Counted from the first letter of the stretch, positions 12,659-18,454 are shown. The stretch: 37,812 bases of DNA from Flavobacteriaceae bacterium (GCA_023262245.1 JALRDC010000044.1:1-37812), one strand, 5' to 3'. Notes: generated by a model from the letters alone, not told the origin. Translations and numbers: made by a program.

Positions 12659-13003
12659 TTGATTCCGCTTGAAAGATATAAAGGTGTAATACTATCAGGG
12701 GTTTCCGGACTCCTGATAGCAATGCTTTTAATCCCAATGGGATTAAAGCTAGAACACGCTTACAGCTTTCATGCCAAAACAAAAGAATGCAAACACAGTA
12801 AGACCCATATTCACGCTGAGAATTCACATGATGATTTCTTAGACTATTATTTTCAACCTTTAGTTGATGAATCTTCACCTGTTTTTAATTTCAAGACATT
12901 TGAAATCAAAAACATTAAGGTAAATTTTTACCAGCACGTTTTTTATTCAAAACCCTACAAAGGCTTAGGTTTGAGAGCCCCACCAGTATTGCTGTTTTCC
13001 TAG
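12659..13003 (+). CDS. Small His/Cys-containing membrane or exported protein ending in LRAPP
   Basis: TTG start, N-terminal hydrophobic segment, KTKECKHSKTHIHAENSHDDF, C-terminal GLRAPPVLLFS; upstream of lipoprotein plus TonB receptor. Confidence 0.65.
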   Translation: MIPLERYKGVILSGVSGLLIAMLLIPMGLKLEHAYSFHAKTKECKHSKTHIHAENSHDDFLDYYFQPLVDESSPVFNFKTFEIKNIKVNFYQHVFYSKPYKGLGLRAPPVLLFS

Positions 13004-13011
13004 AATAAATA

Positions 13012-13043
13012 GGGTATTAAATTTTATAAAAACTTAATATCCC
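13012..13043. repeat. Imperfect inverted repeat between the small His-rich gene and the lipoprotein gene
   Basis: GGGTATTAA ... TTAATATCCC with a single-base bulge and 13-nt spacer. Confidence 0.5.
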
Positions 13044-13078
13044 AAACAGAAATACATAAATCTTAAAACCAGAATAAA

Positions 13079-13627
13079 ATGAAAATAGTAATTAACCCAA
13101 TCTATAATCTCTTTATACTCTTTCTAACCTTGTCGTTCACCTCTTGTGAAAAAGATACTCCAGAAATAGTTGAGGAACAAGAAGTAATAACAACAGTTAC
13201 AATAGAATTTAAAGCTGCTGATGCCTCTTCGCAAACCTTTAAATGGCAAATGGATCAAGCCAATACGCAAACCATCACATTAAAAACCAATACACCTTAT
13301 GAGGTATCGATTGCTTTTTTAGATGAAAGTGATCCTGGAAATGTTAAGGTTATTACAGAGGAAGTAGCGGAGGAAGCAGACGAACACCAAATATTTTACG
13401 AATTTTCTGATGTTACTGTCTCTTACACCTCGGGAGAAAGTGATGCTTTGGATAGTAATAACAATCCTGTATTTATTCACAGTATTTGGACTGCTAGTTC
13501 CACTGGGACAGGGTTTGCAAGAGCATATTTGATACATGAGCCAACTACAAAAAGCAGTACAACCAGAAATGGTTTTGGGGGTGAGACCGATGTTGCGATA
13601 GATATCCCAATAACTATTGTGGATTAA
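13079..13627 (+). CDS. Hypothetical lipoprotein, acidic/His motif EEADEHQIFYEF
   Basis: Lipoprotein signal LTLSFTSCEKD; ATGA overlap with the TonB receptor downstream. Confidence 0.85.
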   Translation: MKIVINPIYNLFILFLTLSFTSCEKDTPEIVEEQEVITTVTIEFKAADASSQTFKWQMDQANTQTITLKTNTPYEVSIAFLDESDPGNVKVITEEVAEEADEHQIFYEFSDVTVSYTSGESDALDSNNNPVFIHSIWTASSTGTGFARAYLIHEPTTKSSTTRNGFGGETDVAIDIPITIVD

Positions 13628-16050
13628 TGAAGCGCTCTGTTTTTCGGCTTCTAATATTTGTAGTCGTCATTACCCTAAAAGGAAGTCCGATTTTGTATGG
13701 TCAATCATGTAATTATTCTTTAAAAGGGAATATTCTAGATTTGCATGATCAATCTCCTATTTTTGGTGCTCTCATTACAATTGAGGGCACCACTTTTTTT
13801 TCACAAACCGATGAATTTGGTACTTATAATTTTGAAAACCTTTGTCCTGGAACTTATTTATTCTTGATAGAACACCCGCAATGTGATTCATTAAAGCGGA
13901 AAATAACGATTCGCCAAAATCAAGTTTTAAATTTTAAACTGGAACACCATATAAATGAATTGGAAGAAATCACCGTATCTGACTCAAAGTTAGAACAGAT
14001 TACTAATTCTGCCCAAGAAGCCCGACTCAATGCAGATCAAATCTTGGAATATAGTAGTAAAAGCCTTGCTGATGCTTTGAATACACTTTCGGGGGTTTCA
14101 GTTTTACGAACAGGAAATAGTATTGCAAAACCTCTCATTCATGGAATGTACGGAAGTAGGGTGGGTATTGTTTCTAATGGGATGCGACTTAGAGATCAAG
14201 AATGGGGAGCAGACCACGCTCCTAATATTGACCTTAACGCATTTGAAACTATACAAGTAGTTAAAGGCGCTGCTGCTTTAAAATACGGGGGGGATACCCC
14301 TGGGGGAATTATCGTGTTAGCTCCTGCTAAAAAAGTCCTAAAAGACAGTTTATATGGTAATACAGTCCTGAATATGGAAACCAATGGCCGTGGCGGAAGT
14401 ATCTCGTCAAGGTGGGTTAAAACCTTTAAATCAGGTTTTTATTATAGTGGTCAACTAACAGCAAAAAGGTTCGGAGACTTTCAAGCTCCAAATTATAATT
14501 TGACAAATACAGGACTTCAAGAAGGGAATCTATCCTTTAAACTAGGAAGTAATAGAATTGTTGAAGGATGGGAGTTTAATTATTCGCGTTTTTCTAATGA
14601 GGTAGGCATTCTGCGTGCCGCTCATATTGGCAATATACAAGATCTCGCAACAGCATTGGCGTCAAATATTCCTTTGAGAGTGAACCCTTTCACCTACGAC
14701 ATTAATGCTCCAAAACAACAAGGAACCCACCAAAACATTCAAATTTCGTATTTCTCAACTACTAAAAATCAAGCAAAATGGAAATGGGAATATAGTTATC
14801 AAATAAACCAAAGAAAAGAATTTGATGTTAGGAGAGGAACTCGTTCAGAGCTCGCTGCCATTGACTTAAAACTCCAAACCCATGCGCTTTCTGGGAATTA
14901 TACATGGAAGAAATTCGAAAATTGGAAATATGAATGGGGAATTAACAGTTTACTACAAGACAATTTTTCAAATCCTAACACAGGAGTAAAACGATTAATC
15001 CCCGATCATTTAAAAATTGAATTGGGAAGCTATATCCTTGGTGTTTACAAGCCAAATAATATGTTTAGTTGGGATTGGGGACTTCGACTGGATGGTGTAC
15101 TTATAGATGCACTAAAATATTATGATGAAAGAGATTGGATCGAAAGAGGTTATGCAGATGAATTTGAACTTTTTGAAATTCAAGACATGGGGACACAACT
15201 ATTAACTAATCCAAAGTTTAACTTTCTTAATATTGCTGGTCAAACTGGAGTGGTATTTGGTTTCGGAAAAGGTTTTGAGTCTAACGTGTCTTACATTCTA
15301 TCTCAGCGAGCACCAAATGCGTCAGAATTGTTTAGCGATGGGTTGCATCATTCTTTAGCAACAATAGAATACGGTAACTTAAGATTACAAAAAGAAACAA
15401 TACACAAACTGCTTTTAGGGGTGTCTAAGACATCAGATTCATTTCAAACCACAATCTCACCTTATGTTTCAAAAGCAAAAAATTATATCTTCATAGTTCC
15501 CAGAGGACTAGAGCAAACCATAAGGGGTGCTTTTCCTTTTTGGCAATATGACGCAACCAATGCCTTGTTTTTTGGAATCGATTTAAATGCTGATTTAGAT
15601 TTAAGTCCAGAATTGAATTTTAATTGGTCAGCATCCTACACTTATGCTCAAGATTTAGAGGCCAATTTACCCTTAATTTCAATCCCTCCATTTAACAGTA
15701 CTCAAAAAATAAAATATACTTCGAATTCAAAAAAATGGGATTTGGAAATAGCCCACCAAAGGGTATCAAAACAATTGCGATTTCCAGACAATAATTTTAA
15801 ATTCAATACTATTAAAATGGGTACTATAGTACCCGAAACAGTAGATATAAGTACCCCTCCCGAGAGTTTTAACAAGTTAGATATGATTTTTTCATTATAT
15901 TTGAAAAGAAGCAAAATCCTCAAAAGCTACCTAAAAGTGATGATTAAAAACATTACAAACAATGACTACAGAGACTACCTTAATCGATTCAGGTATTACG
16001 CTGCAGAAAACGGCAGGAATATCCAATTGCAACTAAATTTTATTTATTAA
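13627..16050 (+). CDS. TonB-dependent receptor (probable metal or metallophore receptor)
   Basis: Carboxypeptidase-regulatory-like N-terminus (GALITIEGTTFFSQTDEFGTYNFENL), plug domain with GMYGSRVGIVSNGMRLRDQEWGADHAPNIDL, VVKGAAALKYGGDTPGGIIVL, terminal beta strand ending in F-I-Y. Confidence 0.92.
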   Translation: MKRSVFRLLIFVVVITLKGSPILYGQSCNYSLKGNILDLHDQSPIFGALITIEGTTFFSQTDEFGTYNFENLCPGTYLFLIEHPQCDSLKRKITIRQNQVLNFKLEHHINELEEITVSDSKLEQITNSAQEARLNADQILEYSSKSLADALNTLSGVSVLRTGNSIAKPLIHGMYGSRVGIVSNGMRLRDQEWGADHAPNIDLNAFETIQVVKGAAALKYGGDTPGGIIVLAPAKKVLKDSLYGNTVLNMETNGRGGSISSRWVKTFKSGFYYSGQLTAKRFGDFQAPNYNLTNTGLQEGNLSFKLGSNRIVEGWEFNYSRFSNEVGILRAAHIGNIQDLATALASNIPLRVNPFTYDINAPKQQGTHQNIQISYFSTTKNQAKWKWEYSYQINQRKEFDVRRGTRSELAAIDLKLQTHALSGNYTWKKFENWKYEWGINSLLQDNFSNPNTGVKRLIPDHLKIELGSYILGVYKPNNMFSWDWGLRLDGVLIDALKYYDERDWIERGYADEFELFEIQDMGTQLLTNPKFNFLNIAGQTGVVFGFGKGFESNVSYILSQRAPNASELFSDGLHHSLATIEYGNLRLQKETIHKLLLGVSKTSDSFQTTISPYVSKAKNYIFIVPRGLEQTIRGAFPFWQYDATNALFFGIDLNADLDLSPELNFNWSASYTYAQDLEANLPLISIPPFNSTQKIKYTSNSKKWDLEIAHQRVSKQLRFPDNNFKFNTIKMGTIVPETVDISTPPESFNKLDMIFSLYLKRSKILKSYLKVMIKNITNNDYRDYLNRFRYYAAENGRNIQLQLNFIY

Positions 16051-16059
16051 ATAAATTAG

Positions 16060-16734
16060 TTGATTTTGAAAATTAGTCCCCTTATTTTATTTCTAGTAAT
16101 TACCTTTTTGGATAGCTACTTAGTTGGTTCTGGTCAAGAACTCTATCAAAAGTTCATTGAGCCCTTAATTACGCCCACCCTATTTATATATTATTGGGTT
16201 AATTCACCTGAAAAAAGCACAAGTCTCATCACGGTTTTTTTATTTCTTTGGACAGGAGATCTTTTACTTCTTTTTGAAACGTCTGATTTACATTTAAAAT
16301 GGTCTGTATTTTGTTATTTTGTCGTGCAAATATTTTTGATTTTGCATTTCTTTAAATACTTCAAAGGCTACTCTCTTAGAGAACACCTTCTAGGGGTATT
16401 GTTATATGGATCTTATTTAGTGGTTTTTTTAAATCATGTTTACATATCTTTAGACGATATGCGTATTCATGGTGTTGTTTATGGTCTTACGCTTTCTTTT
16501 CTAGGAAGTTTTACAATCATGTGGTTATTAAAACAGTATACCAAGCCCATTGCTTTACTGACCAGTGGCCTTTTTATTTTCTCTATTCGTGACGTATTAA
16601 TTACCTACAATAAACGCTATTTTGAGGAAGAATTTTTTACCTTTCCAGTTCCTTTGTTGCACGCTATTGGTTTTTTATTGATTGTTCAAAGTTTCCTTTT
16701 GTTGGAACAAAAACGATTCTCATCTTCGGGCTAA
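16060..16734 (+). CDS. YhhN-like multi-pass membrane protein
   Basis: Multiple hydrophobic helices, LWTGDLLLLF motif, TTG start, close spacing after the TonB receptor. Confidence 0.65.
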   Translation: MILKISPLILFLVITFLDSYLVGSGQELYQKFIEPLITPTLFIYYWVNSPEKSTSLITVFLFLWTGDLLLLFETSDLHLKWSVFCYFVVQIFLILHFFKYFKGYSLREHLLGVLLYGSYLVVFLNHVYISLDDMRIHGVVYGLTLSFLGSFTIMWLLKQYTKPIALLTSGLFIFSIRDVLITYNKRYFEEEFFTFPVPLLHAIGFLLIVQSFLLLEQKRFSSSG

Positions 16735-17740: not shown

Positions 17741-18454
17741 ATGAAGTTAGAAAAGATGAAAAATTCGTTAAACAAAATTTTATCTGTAGTTGTAATTTTA
17801 GCACTGGCAATCAGTTTCATTTCAAATGATAGGGAAAGTGTCTCCTATATTGTTTTAGCAACGCTACTGAATCTAAGCTATTTGTTTTATTACAAATCAA
17901 GTACCTCCTATCGATCAATGATTTTGGATTTAGCTATTTTCTTCTATATGATTGCAGATATACTTTTATTTTTAAGCACTTCAGGTAATGTTTTTTTTCA
18001 AATAGGTGTTTTATTGATGAGCTTAGAAACAATTCTGTTTACATATCTCATATTTGGTTGCTCAGAAAAAATTAAAACACAATATTATTTTATAGGTCCT
18101 ATTTTATTATTGCCCTATTTTATGATCATGTTTTCTCATGTAAGTGAAAGTTTGGAAAGTCTTACTTGGTTAATTTTGTTGGAGATTATTGTGACTCTAA
18201 TTTTAGCCACTTTTTCTTTTGCCCATTTTGCTAAATCTCCCACTTTAATAGACAGCTTTGCCTTGCTAGGCGCAATTTTTTTAGCACTGAATGAGCTTTT
18301 ATCGGGTTACAATTTTTTTTATTACCAACAAAGATATTTTACCTACGAACTCACTGTTACTAGCATTTTATACCACCTTTTTATCCTCACTTTTTTAATC
18401 AATAAATTAGGACATAAAGAGGTGTTATTCTATCGGAATAATAAGGACCTCTAG
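17741..18454 (+). CDS. Multi-pass membrane protein, related to the 16060-16734 protein
   Basis: Hydrophobic helices, shared C-terminal pattern (YN...RYF.xE...HxFxxxxFL). Start could be 17741 or ATG 17756. Confidence 0.7.
   Translation: MKLEKMKNSLNKILSVVVILALAISFISNDRESVSYIVLATLLNLSYLFYYKSSTSYRSMILDLAIFFYMIADILLFLSTSGNVFFQIGVLLMSLETILFTYLIFGCSEKIKTQYYFIGPILLLPYFMIMFSHVSESLESLTWLILLEIIVTLILATFSFAHFAKSPTLIDSFALLGAIFLALNELLSGYNFFYYQQRYFTYELTVTSILYHLFILTFLINKLGHKEVLFYRNNKDL

Follow-up and report, generated by a model that had tools for sequence, protein, structure and literature searches.

A probable leader-peptide-controlled metal uptake operon in Flavobacteriaceae

Three consecutive genes in a Flavobacteriaceae genome probably form a metal uptake operon under the control of a leader peptide, with zinc as the most likely metal. 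The genes occupy positions 12659 to 16050 of the window, which is the whole 37,812-nucleotide stretch analysed and a single contig of a 1.65 Mb genome (completeness 79%). They encode an upstream open reading frame (uORF), a lipoprotein and a ZnuD-like TonB-dependent receptor. An earlier note on this DNA had read them as a probable uptake triad to which the small protein belonged. Instead, the small protein bears the marks of a regulatory leader, and it is most likely a metal-sensing arrest peptide and not part of the importer, because its homologues share an invariant C-terminal R[AG]PP, a fixed spacing, the first position in the locus and an RNA helix at the 3′ end of the uORF. The features of the window are as follows.

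12659–13003, + strand: uORF, putative 114-aa leader peptide with TTG start, export-type N-terminal helix, Cys/His/Asp motif and C-terminal RAPP followed by VLLFS
12788–12832, + strand: candidate metal-ligand motif C44...H50xH52...H57-D58, from the alignment of homologues
12974–12985, + strand: RAPP codons AGA GCC CCA CCA, with the two Pro codons at 12980–12985, predicted ribosome stall site
12986–12998, + strand: predicted 5′ arm of the switch helix, GTATTGCTGTTTT, in the last uORF codons and mostly under the stalled ribosome
13012–13043, + strand: inner spacer hairpin formed by GGGTATTAA / TTAATATCCC, stacked within the switch helix
13044–13056, + strand: predicted 3′ arm of the switch helix, AAACAGAAATACA, ending 22 nt 5′ of the lipoprotein ATG
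13079–13627, + strand: lipoprotein gene, 182 aa, lipobox Cys23, unnamed Bacteroidota family, predicted beta-sandwich
13358–13390, + strand: acidic/His motif EEVAEEADEHQ of the lipoprotein (H103 in 53/53, E95 in 51/53 and E99 in 50/53 sequences)
13627–16050, + strand: TonB-dependent receptor gene, 807 aa, ZnuD-like, with an N-terminal CarboxypepD_reg-like domain
14212–14217, + strand: Asp196-His197 of the plug, which align with the D99-H100 pair of ZnuD zinc ligands
15346–15348, + strand: His574, aligned with ZnuD zinc ligand H499

Gene content and neighbourhood

The three open reading frames described in the earlier note were confirmed at their coordinates, as were the sequences it had singled out: KTKECKHSKTHIHAENSHDD and GLRAPP in the small protein, EEVAEEADEHQIFYEF in the lipoprotein and QEWGADHAP in the receptor. 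Its ATGA overlap between the last two genes is actually TAATG, in which the TAA end and the ATG start share 1 nt at 13627. The TTG start of the uORF sits one base after the stop of a gene with a 3-keto-disaccharide-hydrolase domain, so the uORF may not lead its own transcript in the window. No library gives a name to the small protein or the lipoprotein, and no curated family reached its cut-off for the small protein. The lipoprotein was modelled by AlphaFold2 with a pLDDT of 92.5; a fold search gave no useful match. Its residues H103, H153 and D171 are invariant in homologues. Just 3′ of the receptor, two YhhN-family membrane protein genes lie close together (window 16060-16734 and 17741-18454), the first of them syntenic in close relatives.

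The lipoprotein family is present in 62 of 151 sampled Flavobacteriaceae genomes and, by profile, in 89 of 297 Bacteroidota genomes, where the weakest matches span only the signal and linker. We read 60 loci closely together with the window (61 Flavobacteriaceae loci) and found dozens more. One native locus (L249) belongs to Cellulophaga baltica DSM 24729. A homologous receptor adjoins the lipoprotein in all loci read but one, which lies at a contig end. In every one of the 61 loci, an exported-type uORF of about 95–128 aa comes first, ahead of whichever structural gene leads: the lipoprotein in the window and other small-genome relatives, the receptor in most loci. The conserved three-gene neighbourhood, which the earlier note had proposed as a check, is therefore borne out. 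The uORF also occurs with other partners. Genomes lacking the lipoprotein carry homologous uORFs directly 5′ of another receptor subfamily, and genus g129 has extra copies, some before an ABC ATPase, a TonB receptor and two ABC-2 permeases, others before DUF4625 lipoproteins, a receptor and a His/Asp-rich lipoprotein.

Further small genes were seen in these loci. Between the lipoprotein and an ABC ATPase gene, one cluster holds a second small ORF with HCENC and, near its end, NKPPP (L014:2056-2445, G091), which is another candidate stalling leader within the same cluster. Short ORFs ending in LRAPP or RGPP lie away from the cassette at L034 (minus strand, 1000-1314 of the reverse complement) and L056:6912-7239, and are likely further leader peptides of the same genomes. 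A gene for FolE (GTP cyclohydrolase I) is found near the cassette, mostly convergent, at L007, L008, L010, L013, L019, L020, L025, L026 and L029.

A leader peptide with arrest and metal motifs

The uORF tail ends in R[AG]PP at 47 of the 61 loci, in RPPP, KPPP or KAPP at 13 and in KPPS at one (L035), usually followed by 2–5 further residues. R[AG]PP stands near the C-terminus of 46 of 60 uORFs; among the remaining short ORFs in these loci it does so in 3 of 511. Across an alignment of 46 divergent homologues of the R[AG]PP class, R106, P108 and P109 are invariant, and C44, H50, H52 and a second Cys are conserved in at least 90%. The synonymous codons at R-A/G-P-P are fully mixed, with six used for Arg and four for each Pro, and selection therefore acts at the level of the peptide. 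The Cys/His motif lies 45–48 residues from R[AG]PP, at 45 in members with a CxxC and at 47 from the Cys in others. Both Cys of the CxxC occur in up to 21 of the 46 homologues, whereas the window has Cys44 and Asp58/Leu61 instead; D58 occupies the site of the second Cys of most relatives and is separated from R106 by 47 residues. AlphaFold2 predicts a helix at residues 4–39 of the small protein and disorder for the remainder.

These properties recall CruR, the copper-responsive DUF2946 uORF of the Bordetella pertussis cruR-bfrG-bp2921 operon, in which the CxxC-to-RAPP spacing is 45 and is kept within one or two residues (PMC9426467). Both are exported-type leaders with a metal motif about 45 residues before a C-terminal RAPP, both have an N-terminal helix and a disordered remainder, as predicted by AlphaFold2 for the window protein and as reported for CruR, and both precede a TonB-dependent receptor. 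In contrast to CruR, the window peptide has no CxxC and carries Cys44 with His/Asp residues, and its cassette pairs a zinc-type receptor with a lipoprotein in a member of the Bacteroidota. The window protein does not match the Pfam model of DUF2946 (PF11162), and 3 of 46 homologues match it weakly (best E 0.0074); one distant relative, before a homologous TonB receptor, passes at 26.5 against 23.7 bits (locus L190). The window protein thus has the RAPP spacing, the export signal and the first position before a metal-type TonB receptor, but we do not file it as a DUF2946 member because it fails the profile and CxxC tests.

Structural work has demonstrated arrest at RAPP itself (PMC10951233), and arrest of CruR has been demonstrated in vitro (PMC12992588). 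The second of these studies also includes a bulk survey that predicts RAPP/RGPP uORFs ahead of TonB genes in all Gram-negative phyla. The principle of such uORFs in front of TonB genes is therefore already known; in its readable text the survey does not name the window family, its metal motif or an RNA helix. What is new is the pairing of the uORF tail with the region of the next start, and this family with its metal motif and RNA switch is not described in the literature that could be searched. Other relatives by motif are ApdA, ApdP and their kin, RAPP/RGPP arrest peptides that sense Sec/YidC activity (PMC10951233, PMC10987492). They share the C-terminal R[AG]PP, the N-terminal localization signal and the position directly upstream of the regulated gene, a combination present in its strict form at 47 of our 61 loci, but differ from the window peptide in that the latter is proposed to sense metal.

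RNA pairing between the uORF tail and the next start

Reading the spacers suggested the hypothesis that the last uORF codons and stop are complementary to RNA just 5′ of the next start. A ribosome having the first Pro in its P site would largely cover these last codons and the stop. In the window, GTATTGCTGTTTT is predicted to pair with AAACAGAAATACA around the GGGTATTAA hairpin with a dG of -9.7 kcal/mol (p = 0.01 vs shuffles), and a stalled ribosome raises the calculated openness of the start region to 0.71, against 0.36 in free RNA. For a slightly wider stretch of the window, the energy minimum joins the same 5′ arm to bases at the start codon itself; this counts against the helix as drawn, but would have the same consequence for the switch. 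The Asp in place of the second Cys and the 22 nt between 3′ arm and ATG likewise weigh against the model in the window. The spacer between uORF and next gene is 75 nt in the window and mostly 27–100 nt elsewhere.

Across the 61 loci, RNAduplex energies were significant against shuffled partners (p <= 0.05) at 31, compared with 1 and 4 for two control stretches; roughly every second locus, taken on its own, thus lacks a significant helix. The informative test is that of own against swapped partners: own partners averaged -6.43 kcal/mol vs -3.56 for swapped ones, and 0 of 20,000 permutations were as extreme. The same comparison with six shifted control stretches gave no signal (p = 0.12–0.74), nor did 134 ordinary gene junctions (p = 0.31), which rules out generic junction hairpins as the source. 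Two further sets replicated the result, each with 0 of 20,000 permutations as extreme: 29 loci of other receptor types and families averaged -5.57 vs -3.50 kcal/mol, and 43 newly fetched loci averaged -6.78 vs -3.49 kcal/mol. Among the 35 loci with a helix of at least -6 kcal/mol, a stalled ribosome would cover 76% of the 5′-arm pairs, and the median end of the 3′ arm is at -9 relative to the start. RNAalifold on nine close relatives was consistent with the helix and showed little covariation; this is not the informative test here. The promoter element TAnnTTTG is enriched 5′ of the uORF (33 of 61 loci vs 11.7 in shuffles) and shows no enrichment between the uORF and the next gene of the same loci, on which ground an internal promoter was rejected.

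A stalled ribosome at RAPP would open the helix, and control is therefore probably a translational switch of the SecM or CutF style combined with a CruR-like logic. When the metal is scarce, the ribosome would stall at RAPP and cover the last uORF codons. The uORF tail could then no longer pair with the leader ahead of the next gene, whose start would be exposed, allowing synthesis of lipoprotein and receptor. The spacing of about 47 residues would place the metal motif near or outside the exit tunnel once Pro-Pro is at the peptidyl-transferase centre. Metal bound to the nascent chain may then release the stall, let the helix re-form and turn uptake down. By analogy, the system resembles CruR in logic and CutF or SecM in RNA output. 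CutF is a nascent exported copper sensor of the Rhodobacter capsulatus cutFOG operon (PMC9973294), and it likewise combines an exported chain with a metal site and a proline motif with an RNA stem-loop that shields the start of the next gene. CutF differs in having a CxxxC and a proline-rich end in place of RAPP, in controlling a copper oxidase and in that copper is thought to cause its stalling, opposite in sign to our proposal. The candidate switch is fully specified, from stall codons and metal ligands to both helix arms, and it is a concrete and widespread candidate for transition-metal sensing and for control of many TonB receptors in Bacteroidota. If the proposal holds, metal-sensing arrest peptides, known for copper in Proteobacteria, would also govern zinc-type uptake in Bacteroidota, with a different RNA output.

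Other readings of the uORF are less probable. The same peptide and stall could act by attenuation, with Rho-dependent termination before the first structural gene as the output, and CruR, which has the same motif and spacing before a TonB receptor, acts in this way (PMC9426467). We consider this unlikely, given that our short spacers contrast with the 162-nt cruR-bfrG spacer that serves as the Rho terminator region, and that the tail-to-start helix is strongly selected and is not required by Rho attenuation. It is still harder to see the small protein as a working exported component of the uptake system, such as a metal-binding chaperone, as the earlier note had it. The exported-type N-terminus and conserved Cys/His residues would suit that role, yet a leader peptide is what fits the invariant R-A/G-P-P at the very C-terminus, its fixed distance from the metal motif, the predicted disorder and the pairing of the last codons in the RNA, and relatives without a uORF directly in front retain lipoprotein and receptor under other control. 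Equally improbable is a peptide that monitors protein export like SecM, VemP or ApdP, despite the precedent of RAPP peptides with export signals before sec and yidC genes (PMC10987492, PMC10951233): the loci examined have no sec or yidC gene downstream, the Cys/His ligands are kept at a fixed distance from RAPP and the downstream genes are metal-type receptors. A metal-sensing leader peptide with a translational output is thus the reading we prefer.

Metal identity and a second mode of control

Judged from homology, the receptor and lipoprotein are probably an uptake pair for a metal, and this metal is probably zinc. The zinc ligands of ZnuD from Neisseria meningitidis are D99, H100, E340 and H499 (PMC4557270). 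Three of these four align with D196, H197 and H574 of the window receptor, in agreement with the ZnuD-like receptor and the conserved metal ligands that the earlier note had anticipated. Position 196 is D/E in 43 of 43 receptors and H197 is found in all 43, with H574 in 39. The E340 region of ZnuD did not align with the window receptor, where the invariant E398 and D400 are candidates. ZnuD is the best profile match of the receptor (E 4e-27). Overall similarity is low, with 78 bits on the NCBIfam ZnuD model NF038289, below its cut-off of 950, and the window receptor differs from ZnuD in its additional CarboxypepD_reg-like domain and partner lipoprotein. The zinc-like assignment of the earlier note is accordingly favoured by context, but it rests on homology and context and is not proven.

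The leader mechanism could be unchanged and the metal be copper or iron/heme, a less probable reading that nonetheless deserves weight. Copper is the metal sensed by CruR and CutF, and CxxC is a motif of the copper type; TonB models for heme and copper also match the receptor. Zinc is favoured over these metals by the conserved D/E-H pair of the plug and the loop His of the buried ZnuD site together with the best profile match, whereas OprC has no His at the aligned plug site. In addition, some uORFs head ABC-2/TonB clusters similar to the Zur-repressed znuGHI and znuK of Caulobacter (PMC4176598), and a palindromic box in related cassettes lies beside genes for a Fur-family protein, FolE and MerC.

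The earlier note had suggested a search for a Zur or Fur box upstream of 12659 and at 13012–13043. None was found upstream, and 13012–13043 holds no recognisable operator but an inverted repeat, imperfect in sequence, that forms a hairpin in the RNA. The 61 uORF loci contain no proteobacterial-type Zur/Fur box and no palindrome common to more than 6 of them, and control by such a box was rejected for these loci and the window. In a set of 62 newly fetched cassettes whose upstream DNA was intact, however, a TGCAAC-N3-GTTGCA-type palindrome accompanies 15 of the 16 without a uORF directly in front vs 2 of the 46 with one (Fisher 2e-11), a count that is partly post hoc because the pattern had been noticed in some of these loci beforehand. 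It occurs at 0 of the first 61 uORF loci and is absent from the searched part of the window genome. The palindrome usually lies 30–120 nt 5′ of the first cassette gene and is rare, with 0–5 copies per genome and 0 for the reversed control.

The set of genes marked by TGCAAC-N3-GTTGCA is probably a small Bacteroidota Zur-type regulon. In two distant genomes the palindrome stands beside a Fur-family gene, the two proteins being 54% identical, and it also stands beside an ABC-2 cluster; in G307 and G303 a weaker Fur-family match adjoins the cassette itself. The closest solved relative of the Fur-family protein is FurB/Zur of M. tuberculosis at E = 0.0026 only, and we therefore treat Zur as a lead and not as an assignment. 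No homologue of this regulator was found among small-genome relatives of the window and the window genome's own lineage, in G000, G138, G020, G140 or G043. Three relatives of the window show intermediates between both controls. L198 has a uORF, a 44-aa His/Asp-rich lipoprotein, a divergent Fur-family gene, the box and the cassette in this order, with the uORF about 800 nt further upstream of the cassette; L199 has a uORF, the same lipoprotein, the box and the cassette; and in L200 the box is present and no uORF was found.

It is tempting to speculate that the same zinc-type cassette has two interchangeable controls in Bacteroidota, either a Zur-like repressor with its palindrome or an arrest peptide with a start-site helix, and that the peptide replaces the repressor in the small-genome lineages around the window, although we hold this only tentatively. 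Translation in Bacteroidota mostly initiates without Shine-Dalgarno sequences, and the window would, if our proposal is true, offer a zinc-responsive arrest-peptide switch in such a phylum. The palindrome regulon supplies the counterpart for comparison, and replacement of a transcriptional metal sensor by a translational one is thereby directly testable.

Individual palindrome sites include L296:2388, 3972, 4010, 7697 and 12906 (G335), and others lie at L289-L293; the genes they mark encode Fur-family proteins, MerC, FolE, TonB receptors, a 400-aa lipoprotein, ABC-2 permeases and a pyridine nucleotide-disulphide oxidoreductase. The 44-aa micro-lipoprotein of L198 and L199 (L198:3740-3874, L199:4137-4271) has the sequence CEDDDHDDH(D/E)GHDH..., lies directly 3′ of the uORF, is rich in His and Asp and is possibly a metal buffer.
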